DNA of 64,000 bases from Agreia sp. Leaf210 (GTDB taxonomy: Bacteria > Actinomycetota > Actinomycetes > Actinomycetales > Microbacteriaceae), in contig NZ_LMKK01000001.1 in NCBI RefSeq assembly GCF_001421485.1, positions 5,717-69,716 on the forward strand. Reading direction: 5' to 3'. The notes under the pieces were generated by a model that saw nothing but the letters and a program-made list of their open reading frames with translations, made no database searches and was not told the DNA's origin. Below are positions 25,282 through 60,903 of this stretch, in pieces. Made by a program: the position numbers and the translations under genes. Within the stretch, counting starts at the first letter, position 1, and each line of letters begins with the position of its first letter.

Positions 25282-25318
25282 ACTGTCGGTACAAAGTGCA
25301 TCACCAGCCACCGACAGT
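25282..25318 (+). promoter_or_regulatory. lexA leader hairpin
   Basis: ACTGTCGGT (25282-25290) pairs perfectly with ACCGACAGT (25310-25318), with a 19-base loop. It begins about 10 bases after the putative -10, so it would form near the 5' end of the lexA mRNA. Confidence 0.4.
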
Positions 25319-25336
25319 GCACCACCAGCCACCGAC
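25295..25336. repeat. 21-bp tandem repeat in lexA leader
   Basis: Two 21-base units (25295-25315 and 25316-25336) differ at one position. On the minus strand each reads TGTCGGTGG, the core of PafBC/RecA-NDp-type promoters. The period equals two helical turns. Confidence 0.6.
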
Positions 25337-25394
25337 ATCGGCGACTGCGAAGGCACAGCACACTCGAAAACGACGCCGACGGAAAGCGGGACAC

Positions 25395-33680: not shown

Positions 33681-33702
33681 ACTGTAGACACGACCACCGA
33701 CA
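33681..33702 (-). promoter_or_regulatory. PafBC/RecA-NDp-like promoter of recA
   Basis: Minus strand TGTCGGTGG (33694-33702), seven bases, TACAGT (33681-33686). The mycobacterial LexA-independent recA promoter has the same build: TGTCAGTGG, seven bases, then a -10 box. It would start about 110 bases before recA. Confidence 0.65.
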
Positions 33703-33773: not shown

Positions 33774-33789
33774 TAGAACATATATTCGA
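33774..33789. promoter_or_regulatory. LexA (SOS) box upstream of recA
   Basis: TAGAAC-ATAT-ATTCGA, two mismatches from TCGAAC-N4-GTTCGA. It lies 210 bases before recA and 35 bases after DUF3046. Confidence 0.65.
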
Positions 33790-57089: not shown

Positions 57090-57350
57090 GTGGCAAACAT
57101 CAAGTCGCAGATCAAGCGCATCGGCACCAACAAGAAGGCCCAGGAGCGCAACAAGGCCGTCAAGAGTGGCCTGAAGACTGCTATCCGCGCCACCAAGACC
57201 GCTGTCGCCACGGGCGACAAAGACAAGGCCCTCGCCGCGCTGACCGCAGCGGGCAAGAAGCTCGACAAGGCCGCCTCGAAGGGCGTCATCCACAAGAACC
57301 AGGCCGCGAACCGCAAGTCGGCCCTCGCGAAGACCGTCGCCTCTCTCTAA
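57090..57350 (+). CDS. rpsT: 30S ribosomal protein S20
   Basis: Primary 16S rRNA-binding protein of the small subunit. The 86 residues are Lys-rich and helical: [21 protein letters not shown] at the start and the [16 protein letters not shown] signature near the end. It begins on GTG, with AGAGGT nine bases upstream; a non-ATG start with a long leader is compatible with the autogenous control known for S20. It is divergent from the aminotransferase fusion. Confidence 0.98.
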
Positions 57351-57360
57351 CGAGGTGCAC

Positions 57361-57400
57361 GCACGAAAAAAGCCCCGCTGATGCGGGGCTTTTTTCGTGC
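57361..57400. terminator. Bidirectional terminator after rpsT and holA
   Basis: An 18-base perfect stem (57361-57378 with 57383-57400), loop TGAT, with A6 and T6 runs at the stem base. It is the strongest intrinsic terminator in the window. Confidence 0.95.
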
Positions 57401-57407
57401 CCGCTAG

Positions 57408-58436
57408 TCAGCGAGGAAGCTCTCCCCGTTCGGCGATGACACCGATCATGCGCTCGAGCGAGTAGACCGCGTCGCGGCTGCCACCCTTGATGTTCTCGTC
57501 GGTCTCGGCGAGCATCTGGATGCTGCGCCCCAAGCCCGCACCCGACCAGCCGGCCAGGTCTCGGCGGGCTCTGTCGATCTGCCACGGCGCGAGGCCCAAT
57601 TGGCCGGCGAGCTGGCCTGACCCTCCGCGCGTTCCGAGTACCTTGGCCATCGTGCGGAGCTTCATGGCGAACGCCGCGACCATGGGCACGGGATCGGCGC
57701 CCGAGGCGAGCGCGTGACGGGCGAGCGCGAGCGCCTCGCCGTGCCTGCCGGCGATGGCCATGTCGGCCACCGCGAAGGCGCTGGCCTCGACGCGACCGCC
57801 GTAGTAGCGGTCGACCGTGGCCTCGGTGATCTCGGCCGATGCATCGGCGACGAGTTGCTGACAGGCGCTCGAGAGCTCGGCGAGGTCGTCGGAGAACGCG
57901 GCGACGAGCGCCCGCAGGGCGCCCGACGAAACGCGACGCCCGGCGGCCCGGAACTCGGAGGAGGCGAACTCGTACCGCTCGGTGTCTTTCTTGAGCTCGG
58001 CGCAGACGATCTCGATGCCCCCGCCCGAACCGGAGCGGATGGCGTCGAGCAGCCGCTTGCCTCTGACGCCGCCGCCGTGGCGGAGCACCAGGTATGTGTC
58101 GTCTGCCGGATTCTCGAGGTAGGAGATCGTCTCGCTGAGGAAATCGTCGGTGCACTTCTCGACGGACGACACCCGGATCATGCGGGGCTCGCCGAAGAGC
58201 GACGGGCTCGCAACGGTGAGCAGCTCGCCCGGCGCGTACGACGACGCGTCGATGTCGGAGACCTCGAGGCTGGGGTCTTCGATCTTCAACAGCTCACGAA
58301 GCTGCCGGATGCTGCGCTCGGCGAGGAACGTCTCTGTGCCCGAGACCAGCACCACCGGCGCGGGGCGGACCTGCTCCCACGAGAGTTGCGGGATCGAGGC
58401 CTTGGCTGTTTGTTTTGCGCCGCGTGCAGTTGCCAC
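57408..58436 (-). CDS. holA: DNA polymerase III delta subunit
   Basis: Opens the sliding clamp as part of the clamp loader. The 342 residues begin with PVVLVSGTETFLAERSIRQL (about 27-46) of the N-terminal AAA-like domain, without a Walker A, as usual for delta, and end in the helical collar domain (LGLAPWQIDRARRDLAGWS). GTG start 58436 with GAGTGAGGA upstream. It overlaps comEC by 143 bases. A PafBC-like promoter lies at 58466-58487. Confidence 0.93.
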   Translation of the reverse strand: MATARGAKQTAKASIPQLSWEQVRPAPVVLVSGTETFLAERSIRQLRELLKIEDPSLEVSDIDASSYAPGELLTVASPSLFGEPRMIRVSSVEKCTDDFLSETISYLENPADDTYLVLRHGGGVRGKRLLDAIRSGSGGGIEIVCAELKKDTERYEFASSEFRAAGRRVSSGALRALVAAFSDDLAELSSACQQLVADASAEITEATVDRYYGGRVEASAFAVADMAIAGRHGEALALARHALASGADPVPMVAAFAMKLRTMAKVLGTRGGSGQLAGQLGLAPWQIDRARRDLAGWSGAGLGRSIQMLAETDENIKGGSRDAVYSLERMIGVIAERGELPR

Positions 58437-60903
58437 GTGTCCTCACTCTGTCGATTCTCGTCTCGAGCCTAGTCGGCGGCACCGACAGAGCGGACGCGGC
58501 CGGGGCGGCTACCGCCTTCTCGCTCCAGACGACGGTCTGGCCATCCTCGATCGACACCACGATCAGTCCCAGCTGATCCGTGCGGAAGACACGAGTGGCC
58601 GCTCCCGAGAGGATCTCGAGGATGCGGTTGTTCGGATGCCCGTAGTCGTTGTCGGCGCCCACGGAGATGATTCCCGCCCGAGCATGGATGCGTTCATAGA
58701 GCTCTGCGCTCTGATCGCCCGACCCGTGATGCGCGACCTTCACGACATCGACGCGCCCTACCCGACCCTCCGCCATCAACTGGGCCTGGTCGCTCTCGCC
58801 GAGGTCTCCGAGGAACAGGGCATCGACGTCACCGGAGAACAGGAGCGTGACGCTCGCGCCGTTGCCCCGGAGCGTGGTGTCGACGGTGGGCCAGAGCACC
58901 TCCCAGCGCAGTCGGCCGAGCACTCCCCTGTCACCGCGTGCCGCCTGGTGCACCGCGGCCCCGGACTCGACGAGGCGGCTGACCACCGACACATCGGATC
59001 GACCGTCGGTGGGGCCCACGAGCACCGCGTCGGCGCGACCCACCACGGCATCGAGACCGCCGATGTGGTCGAGGTCGAAGTGCGTGAGCACGAGGAGGTC
59101 GATGCGACCGATCTGCATCCGATCGAGACAGGCGCGCAGCGCATCTGGATCAGGCCCCGTGTCGATGAGCGCGGTGACGCCGTCGCTTCTCACCAGTACC
59201 GCGTCGCCCTGCCCGATGTCGCACGCGGCGATGCGCCAGTTCTGCGGCACGGACAACCGGAGCGCGATGGTGCCGCCGACCAGCACCCCTCCGTAGACGC
59301 CGACGATCGCCGCGATCAGGAACACGGCCGCGAAACGACGTAGCCGAGGGGCGCCGGTGGCCAGAACGACCCAGAGCGCCAGTGCCGTCAGCACCAGCAC
59401 GAGCAGGGCGCCGATGAGTCCGGGTACCCAGGGCAGCCGCGCCCCCGGTGCGCCCGCGAAGAAACGTGCGACAGCACCGATCCAGGCGGCGGGCACCCAG
59501 CACAGCCATGCCGTCGGAACCGCGAGCGCCGGTATGAGCGCGCCCACCAGGCAGGCCAGCAAACCCACGACGGTGGCGACGGGGGCGGCCGGAGCCGCGA
59601 GCAGATTGGCCGGCACGCTGTAGGGAGCGATCGTGGGTGTGAGGAGGGCGAGCACCGGCTGACAGGCGAGTTGCGCAGCAAGCGGAACCGCTATGACAGC
59701 GGCGAGCCAGGTCGGCATCCACCGAGACAAGGCGGCGGTGAGGGGCCGGGTGAACAGGAGGAGTCCGGCCGTGGCGAGAGAAGACAGGGCGAAGCCGAAG
59801 CTGTGCGAGAGCCACGGATCGGTGACGATGAGGCTGATGACGGCCACACAGAGCACGGGCATGCCTCGAGCCGAGCGGGACGCACCCATCGACATGAGAA
59901 CGATCCCCGCCATCGCAGCCGCTCGAATGACGCTCGGTTGCGGCGTCACGAGGACGACGAAGAGCACCAGCACGGCGCCGGCCGCGCCGAGTCGTGCGCT
60001 GCGACGAAGACCGGCGAAGCCGGCGATCAGGAATGCACCCGCGATGACGATGGCGCAGTTCGCCCCGGAGACGGCGGTGAGGTGACTGAGACCGCTGTCT
60101 TTCATGGCCTCGTCGAGCGACGCGTCGACCAGCGAGTCGTCGCCCAGAGCGAGGCCGGGCACGAGTTCTGCCCCGTCGCCGGGGAGGCCACGGGCTGCGT
60201 CGGCGAACCGGGCGCGCAACTCGGCTGCCCACGCGAGCTGCCACCCCGGCGGCCGGATCGTCTGCGGTCGACCCTCTGCGAACGCGAGCCACGCCGTCTG
60301 CGATCCGTCATCGGTCGCGCGGAATCTCGCATCGACACGGATCGTCGATCCGATAGCCGGCGCATCGACGGTGCCGAGGTCGTCGACGAAGAGCAGCACT
60401 CTCGTCGACGTGCGGTCGCTGCGGCCCGCAGTGTTCTGGATCCGGTGCAGGGTCGCCTCGAACCGCACCCCCGACACCGACTGGCCGGCGAATCCCGAGT
60501 GCGCGGTCTCTGACGGGGTTCCCACGACCTCGAGCTCGGCCGACAGCATCCCCTGCGTCTCGTCGAGAAGAAGCGGCGGCTCTCGGAGGGGCTGGAAGAC
60601 GAGGACCGCCGACGCGATACTCGCGCCGATGCCGGCGCACACGGCGATCGTCGGGAGAGCGCTGCGTGCTGCTCGGAGTACTCGACCCCGTCGAGATCTC
60701 TTCGGCGACGAGGGCCGCACTGGCCACAGCGCGAGCGAGACCGCCGTGCAGGCGAAGGCGGCGATCAGCACCGGCACAGCAGCAGCAGGCTGGTCCACCA
60801 CAGCGAAGGCCACGCCCCAGGCGCACAGAGCAGGAAGCGTCAGGCGATGATCGGCCCACCGGGTCGAGGCCGATTGCCGTGCGCCATGCCGCGTCTCGGT
60901 CAC
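58294..60903 (-). CDS. comEC: ComEC/Rec2 DNA-uptake channel protein
   Basis: Membrane channel that takes up single-stranded DNA in transformation. The 869 residues have N-terminal spans and an OB-like domain (about 20-220), the competence domain with about eight spans (about 240-535, HLTAVSGANCAIV), and a metallo-beta-lactamase domain (about 560-800, LTHFDLDHIGG, KVAHHGSGDQS). The last 47 residues run into holA out of frame and look unlike the family. A GTG start overlaps the comEA stop. Whether this organism is competent is unknown. Confidence 0.92.
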   Translation of the reverse strand: MTETRHGARQSASTRWADHRLTLPALCAWGVAFAVVDQPAAAVPVLIAAFACTAVSLALWPVRPSSPKRSRRGRVLRAARSALPTIAVCAGIGASIASAVLVFQPLREPPLLLDETQGMLSAELEVVGTPSETAHSGFAGQSVSGVRFEATLHRIQNTAGRSDRTSTRVLLFVDDLGTVDAPAIGSTIRVDARFRATDDGSQTAWLAFAEGRPQTIRPPGWQLAWAAELRARFADAARGLPGDGAELVPGLALGDDSLVDASLDEAMKDSGLSHLTAVSGANCAIVIAGAFLIAGFAGLRRSARLGAAGAVLVLFVVLVTPQPSVIRAAAMAGIVLMSMGASRSARGMPVLCVAVISLIVTDPWLSHSFGFALSSLATAGLLLFTRPLTAALSRWMPTWLAAVIAVPLAAQLACQPVLALLTPTIAPYSVPANLLAAPAAPVATVVGLLACLVGALIPALAVPTAWLCWVPAAWIGAVARFFAGAPGARLPWVPGLIGALLVLVLTALALWVVLATGAPRLRRFAAVFLIAAIVGVYGGVLVGGTIALRLSVPQNWRIAACDIGQGDAVLVRSDGVTALIDTGPDPDALRACLDRMQIGRIDLLVLTHFDLDHIGGLDAVVGRADAVLVGPTDGRSDVSVVSRLVESGAAVHQAARGDRGVLGRLRWEVLWPTVDTTLRGNGASVTLLFSGDVDALFLGDLGESDQAQLMAEGRVGRVDVVKVAHHGSGDQSAELYERIHARAGIISVGADNDYGHPNNRILEILSGAATRVFRTDQLGLIVVSIEDGQTVVWSEKAVAAPAASALSVPPTRLETRIDRVRTRGNCTRRKTNSQGLDPATLVGAGPPRAGGAGLGHRDVPRRAQHPAAS
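58466..58487 (-). promoter_or_regulatory. PafBC/RecA-NDp-like promoter before holA
   Basis: Minus strand TGTCGGTGC (58479-58487), seven bases, TAGGCT (58466-58471). It has the same build as the element before recA and starts about 25 bases ahead of holA, inside the comEC reading frame. Confidence 0.5.

Follow-up and report, generated by a model that had tools for sequence, protein, structure and literature searches.

The closest described counterparts of the site analyzed here are the RecA-NDp promoters of mycobacteria. In the mycobacterial mechanism given in PMC11804915, PafBC is activated by single-stranded DNA (ssDNA), with PafB bound to the −26 motif and PafC to domain 4 of sigma-A. The motif core is printed as TGTCGG/AG/AC-N10-TANNNT in section 3.5 of PMC8151990. 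Outside mycobacteria, the same promoter class is represented in PMC5087735 by the Streptomyces promoters of recA and SCO6735, the latter described as UV-inducible in a section heading, whereas PMC9380542 reports an initial search in which the M. smegmatis motif was not seen to be conserved in S. venezuelae. A further relative is the DriD-type WYL activator of Caulobacter (PMC12340889), with which PafBC shares ssDNA binding through a WYL-domain protein and a non-canonical damage response; it belongs to another lineage, and the likeness is one of activators. The gene considered here, holA, is not mentioned in the main text of either PMC8151990 or PMC11804915 nor, by text counts, in PMC6789036, PMC8223512, PMC5656591 and PMC9380542, the comparison being confined to these texts. 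Its M. tuberculosis counterpart, identified as Rv2413c in PMC2587704, is listed among the drug-responsive genes tabulated in PMC2775200, which also notes its increase at 4 hours of starvation, and PMC10609372 has it in a STRING gene list; these mentions bear on DNA damage neither way.

In the stretch of Agreia sp. Leaf210 DNA that was analyzed (64,000 nucleotides, hereafter the window), the minus strand between 58487 and 58466 reads TGTCGGTG CCGCCGAC TAGGCT, which can also be written as TGTCGGTGC-N7-TAGGCT or, as a pattern, TGTCRGTG-N8-TANNNT. The −26 element TGTCGGTG (58480–58487, minus strand) fits both TGTCRGTG and the published core TGTCGG/TGTCAG/TGTCAC. The −10 hexamer TAGGCT (58466–58471, minus strand) lies 8 nt beyond the octamer and 10 nt beyond its first six bases. 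A promoter scan of 57200–58800 found no sigma-70-type promoter, and upstream of holA on its own strand none was present at spacing 17, in keeping with a promoter that needs no sigma-A −35 element. From the promoter geometry, transcription would be expected to start 5 to 8 nt past the −10 hexamer (58458–58461, minus strand), followed by GTGAGG as the likely ribosome-binding site (58441–58446, minus strand). The original prediction had placed a recA-like element about 25 bases before holA and inside comEC: its sequence and its location within comEC are confirmed, and the distance from the end of the −10 hexamer to the GTG start codon (58436–58434) is corrected to 29 nt (58465–58437).

The gene downstream (57408–58436, minus strand) encodes the 342-residue delta subunit of DNA polymerase III, with a score of 173.5 bits against TIGR01128 (cut-off 80). 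The comEC open reading frame (58294–60903, minus strand) holds the site in its 3′ end and runs on past it in a different frame; its overlap with holA is 143 nt. On the far side of holA, in the gap to the convergent rpsT gene, a 17-bp hairpin with A/T runs (57362–57399, annotated on the minus strand) was recognized by eye as a probable two-way terminator; it was absent from the output of the terminator scan. Given this hairpin, a transcript from the 58466 site would probably carry holA alone. A second source of holA message may be the comEC transcripts.

We consider it likely that the site, within the 3′ end of comEC, is a PafBC-dependent promoter of the RecA-NDp type for holA. It shares with mycobacterial promoters such as recA P1 the TGTCRG box, the 10 nt to TANNNT and the missing −35 element (PMC8151990), as well as a pafBC-type locus in the genome and repair genes among the targets. 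It differs in that holA is a core replication gene and in that the site is embedded in an upstream open reading frame. The sequence side of this assignment is firm; PafBC binding, a transcription start at the inferred position, induction by damage and a physiological role at holA would be its consequences.

Within the window the exact motif occurred twice, before holA and before recA, as compared to 0.01 occurrences expected from 100 shuffles. The recA site (33681–33702, minus strand, 116 nt before the gene) served as the reference within the genome. Farther upstream of recA, a LexA-box-like match with two mismatches was seen at 33774–33789, an arrangement that resembles the two-promoter recA of mycobacteria. 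The genome-wide scan for TGTCRGTG-N8-TANNNT that had been proposed with the original prediction gave 9 exact sites and none for the backward pattern (3.54 Mb, 5 contigs). Each of the 9 is followed, at a distance of 6 to 116 nt, by an open reading frame on the same strand (73 aa long in the case of L005). Their targets are recA, uvrA, dnaX, clpX, holA, a DUF6504 gene with a dnaE-like gene behind it, and three small genes, of which one is rhodanese-like and two have no family match; recA, uvrA, dnaX and clpX were named by family matches, with only part of UvrA and DnaX scanned. DNA-repair genes (recA, uvrA, dnaX and the dnaE-like gene) are thus preceded by the same motif as holA. When one mismatch was allowed, 70 matches were found against 21 in the control. 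One of the 70, with the form TGTCGGCG, lies upstream of recG; this form, too, thus precedes a repair gene of the genome.

Two further sequence groups were noted in the same genome. Between lexA and a divergent LysM-like gene (window positions 25295–25337, minus strand), TGTCGGTGGCTGGTG(A/G)TGCAC is repeated in tandem, the two copies each having one mismatch to the RecA-NDp pattern. The sequence TGTCGGTGGCTGCTGTTTGACT occurs in five identical copies and four close variants (C1:159224, 1038993, 1103670 and 1140875; C2:440298 and 788881; C4:313382; C5:549 and 64972), and one member of this group precedes an open reading frame with a weak DUF222 match under the Pfam cut-off.

The regulator itself is encoded in the genome. 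PafC was recognized by its HTH_PafC, WYL and WCX domains (PF19187, PF13280, PF25583), and the WYL-WCX gene directly upstream is probably PafB, as assigned by position; the order of the locus is FKBP gene, WYL-WCX gene, pafC, tatC. Across the family, a PafC match at E ≤0.001 was obtained in 145 of 150 genomes, including one at only 5e-4 (G005), although some of the weaker matches counted here may be other WYL proteins. The genomes with no recognizable PafC (G015, G065, G081, G088 and G144) and the weakly matching G005 are small (0.9–1.5 Mb). Five PafC-less or weak genomes had a holA region that could be examined, and all five lacked the strict published core, TGTC(GG/AG/AC)-N10-TANNNT, a number too small to tie the box to the regulator; one of these five, G088, still scored 9.8 before holA with the matrix described below.

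Conservation before holA was followed in two overlapping sets, namely the best 80 of 159 named loci and 148 of the 149 family genomes (out of 150) with a HolA match, G099 being left out; two genomes (G077 and G140) share coordinates with named loci (L048 and L049). The four nearest named loci belong to Agreia and are 96 to 98% identical. Among the best 80 of 159 named loci, the best site had 0, 1, 2, 3, 4 or 5 mismatches in 7, 26, 25, 10, 5 and 7 cases, respectively, while none of the 159 control windows contained a site with fewer than three mismatches. Elsewhere in these best 80 of 159 loci, 5 of 58 −10-like hexamers were accompanied by an octamer with one or two mismatches. In whole family genomes, with a spacer of 7 or 8 allowed, sites with 0–1 mismatch were found before holA in 12 of 30, dnaX in 23 of 30, recA in 22 of 29 and uvrA in 24 of 30 genomes, compared with none of 357 control windows inside genes. 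Those before holA, dnaX and recA all had the N8 spacer; the 29 recA loci include two (G022 and G124) with stops in the frame read, which may be wrongly placed or truncated where a contig ends. Before uvrA, a site with 0–1 mismatch and a spacer of 7 rather than 8 nt was seen in 7 of 30 genomes (L203, L209, L210, L211, L212, L214 and L215).

A scoring matrix trained only on 44 recA and uvrA sites, each with at most two mismatches, gave the region before holA 6 bits or more in 88 of 148 genomes, representing 59 of 84 genera, and less than this in 60; the corresponding counts for the 148 genomes were 7 on the reverse complement, 7 on the reversed sequence and 3.1 in letter shuffles. The strict core was more rarely retained: before holA it stood in 21 of 148 genomes (0.02 in shuffles), which represent 16 of 84 genera, compared with 19 of 29 for recA, 17 of 30 for uvrA and 19 of 30 for dnaX. 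Alignment on the −10 hexamer TA(G/A)NCT alone, for which 85 of 108 upstream sequences were usable with exactly one such hexamer and 23 had none, brought out (T/C)GTCGG(C/T)G at precisely the expected distance, without any −35 element; the G, T and C of its GTC were conserved at 99, 87 and 95%. GTCRG stood at the expected −26 offset in 42 of the 104 genomes that have such a −10 (44 of the 148 do not), or in 23 of 63 when one genome per genus was taken; no other offset had it in more than 5 of 104. The original prediction had proposed conservation before holA as a check, and by the matrix it was found in 88 of 148 genomes, yet by the strict core in only 21.

The box itself varies. The exact octamer is kept before holA in the window genome and in G025, G047 and G149, and of five species of the genus two carry TGTCTGTG and two TGTCGGCG. 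At its first position T was present in all 44 recA and uvrA training sites, which were themselves preselected at two mismatches or fewer, and in 56% of cases before holA, where C made up 32%. As judged from these sequences, the −26 box of holA is usually weaker in relatives than those of recA and uvrA, and with a box weakened in most of them holA may be a weak target. Taken together, the architecture shared with the recA, uvrA, dnaX and clpX sites, the −26/−10 spacing conserved before holA both in this family and in several further families of actinobacteria, and the pafBC-type locus support the original prediction of a RecA-NDp-like promoter well.

Beyond the family, 138 genomes of the class with holA were available, 7 of them from the family of the window. 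Of the other 131, 90 were examined, comprising 30 returned loci and 60 picked by hand to spread over families. The family matrix reached at least 6 bits before holA in 31 of the 90 (reverse complement, 2). Many class genomes have a TG-extended −10 close before holA; among 58 of this kind, TGTCRG was found at the standard spacing exactly in 22 and with at most one mismatch in 32, against a background of 0 and 1 of 24, respectively. The core with a strict TANNNT was present in 5 of 90 genomes (reverse complement, 1) and with the −10 relaxed to NANNNT in 28 (shuffles, 0.3; reverse complement, 1). In other families the box recurs with GATGCT or CATGCT as −10. Family f19, a single genus with genomes of 6.8–9.7 Mb that is probably Streptomyces, carries the exact octamer before holA in all six genomes examined. 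In f13, f18 and most of f17 the −10 is retained and the −26 box is gone, f16 shows no strict core before holA, and in the 12 genomes of f23 (1.2–2.2 Mb) no promoter of RecA-NDp type was found there. The exact motif exceeded its backward control in each of the 16 class genomes scanned, from 2 against 0 in one f17 genome to 29–70 against 0–2 in those of f19. If f19 is indeed Streptomyces, its sites point in the opposite direction to the initial search described in PMC9380542 and agree with the Streptomyces promoters of PMC5087735.

The other clamp-loader genes were also inspected. Before dnaX, 14 of 30 class genomes outside the family had a site with 0–1 mismatch (NANNNT allowed) and none on the reverse complement; these genomes were chosen by hand from the 90 in favor of families with a holA box. 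Sites of the PafBC type before dnaX (L156–L185) and uvrA (L186–L215) mostly end 6–7 nt before the start codon, so that the corresponding transcripts would be leaderless. In the window genome, holB (G000:C1:625500-629500, L412) encodes the delta′ subunit (NF005926, 455 bits, cut-off 300). Six nucleotides before its ATG, just after a tmk-like gene, it shows TGTCAC-N10-TAGGTT, the third variant of the published core, with two mismatches to the octamer pattern; when the 190-nt region was letter-shuffled 20000 times, a match arose 9 times, and the site was found after the fact and in this one genome. All three clamp-loader subunit genes of the window genome, holA, dnaX and holB, carry an element, and holB may be a PafBC target too.

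Several other readings of the holA site were weighed. A chance match to a degenerate pattern has some basis in the window shuffles, the rough rate of which, scaled to 3.54 Mb, predicts about half a site per genome, so that by numbers alone a single exact match would be accidental about once in 16. Such a match would not, however, be conserved at fixed spacing before holA across many genera, and upstream of rpsT, examined as a control, none of 77 loci contained the strict core, and 21 −10-like hexamers were accompanied by no octamer with fewer than four mismatches; we hold this explanation to be hardly credible. Equally little speaks for SOS regulation of holA by LexA. Many DNA damage genes of actinobacteria are LexA targets, and the SOS box has the consensus TCGAAC-N4-GTTCGA, but near 58466 no such box was found within two mismatches, though the scan was a weak one, giving 12 matches in the window where 5.7 were expected. 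Part of the −10 conservation does have a second cause, because the comEC stop codon in many relatives is the TAG that opens the −10 hexamer (the equivalent of 58466–58471). The bases could then be kept for the ComEC C-terminus and its stop, and of the 83 loci or genomes whose site has no more than two mismatches, 35 indeed have the called stop within it. By the same calls, which rest on a crude choice of frame that in some cases is plainly not ComEC, the stop lies upstream of the site in 22 of 83, including the exact sites L116, L119 and L125. The window genome moreover reads the site in another frame, and other families have the box with a GATGCT or CATGCT hexamer. Coding constraint as the whole explanation is accordingly very improbable, though slightly less so than chance or LexA.

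More weight has to be given to a constitutive holA promoter, in which the conserved −10 provides steady expression, the −26 box is a leftover or serves basal activity and PafBC adds little or nothing. The persistence of the −10 in families without the box (f13, f18, most of f17), its frequent TG extension outside the family and the degenerate box of most family members are all consistent with it. An unused box would, however, not be expected to hold one spacing, as GTCRG does, and the exact octamer is kept in the window genome, its three family relatives and all six f19 genomes examined. We regard a purely constitutive promoter as unlikely, although it is the most serious of the alternatives.

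For a PafBC-dependent holA promoter, the mycobacterial mechanism would predict that DNA damage gives rise to ssDNA, which activates PafBC; PafB would then read the −26 box and PafC would hold domain 4 of sigma-A, allowing RNA polymerase to start at the −10 hexamer without a −35 element. The product after damage would be a short-leader, probably single-gene holA mRNA. Through the sites before dnaX and holB, the clamp-loader subunits would be raised together with holA, and the raised clamp loader could reload clamps where gaps are filled and forks restarted.

To our knowledge, the clamp loader is not among the damage-induced genes of the classical SOS picture in E. coli. The target set found here is suggestive of an increase of clamp-loader subunits in damaged actinobacteria. 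We see an even chance that the clamp loader (holA and dnaX, and for the window genome at least also holB) has from early on been a common component of the actinomycete damage response under PafBC, large-genome lineages such as f19 included. The small genomes without PafC are natural experiments for asking which sites require it, and the f19 result makes the PafBC response testable in lineages for which it was reported as open (PMC9380542). If holA, dnaX and holB are PafBC targets, more clamp loading would be available under ssDNA build-up, serving gap filling, polymerase exchange and fork restart, and DNA damage would raise the loading capacity of the replisome in addition to repair and mutagenesis.
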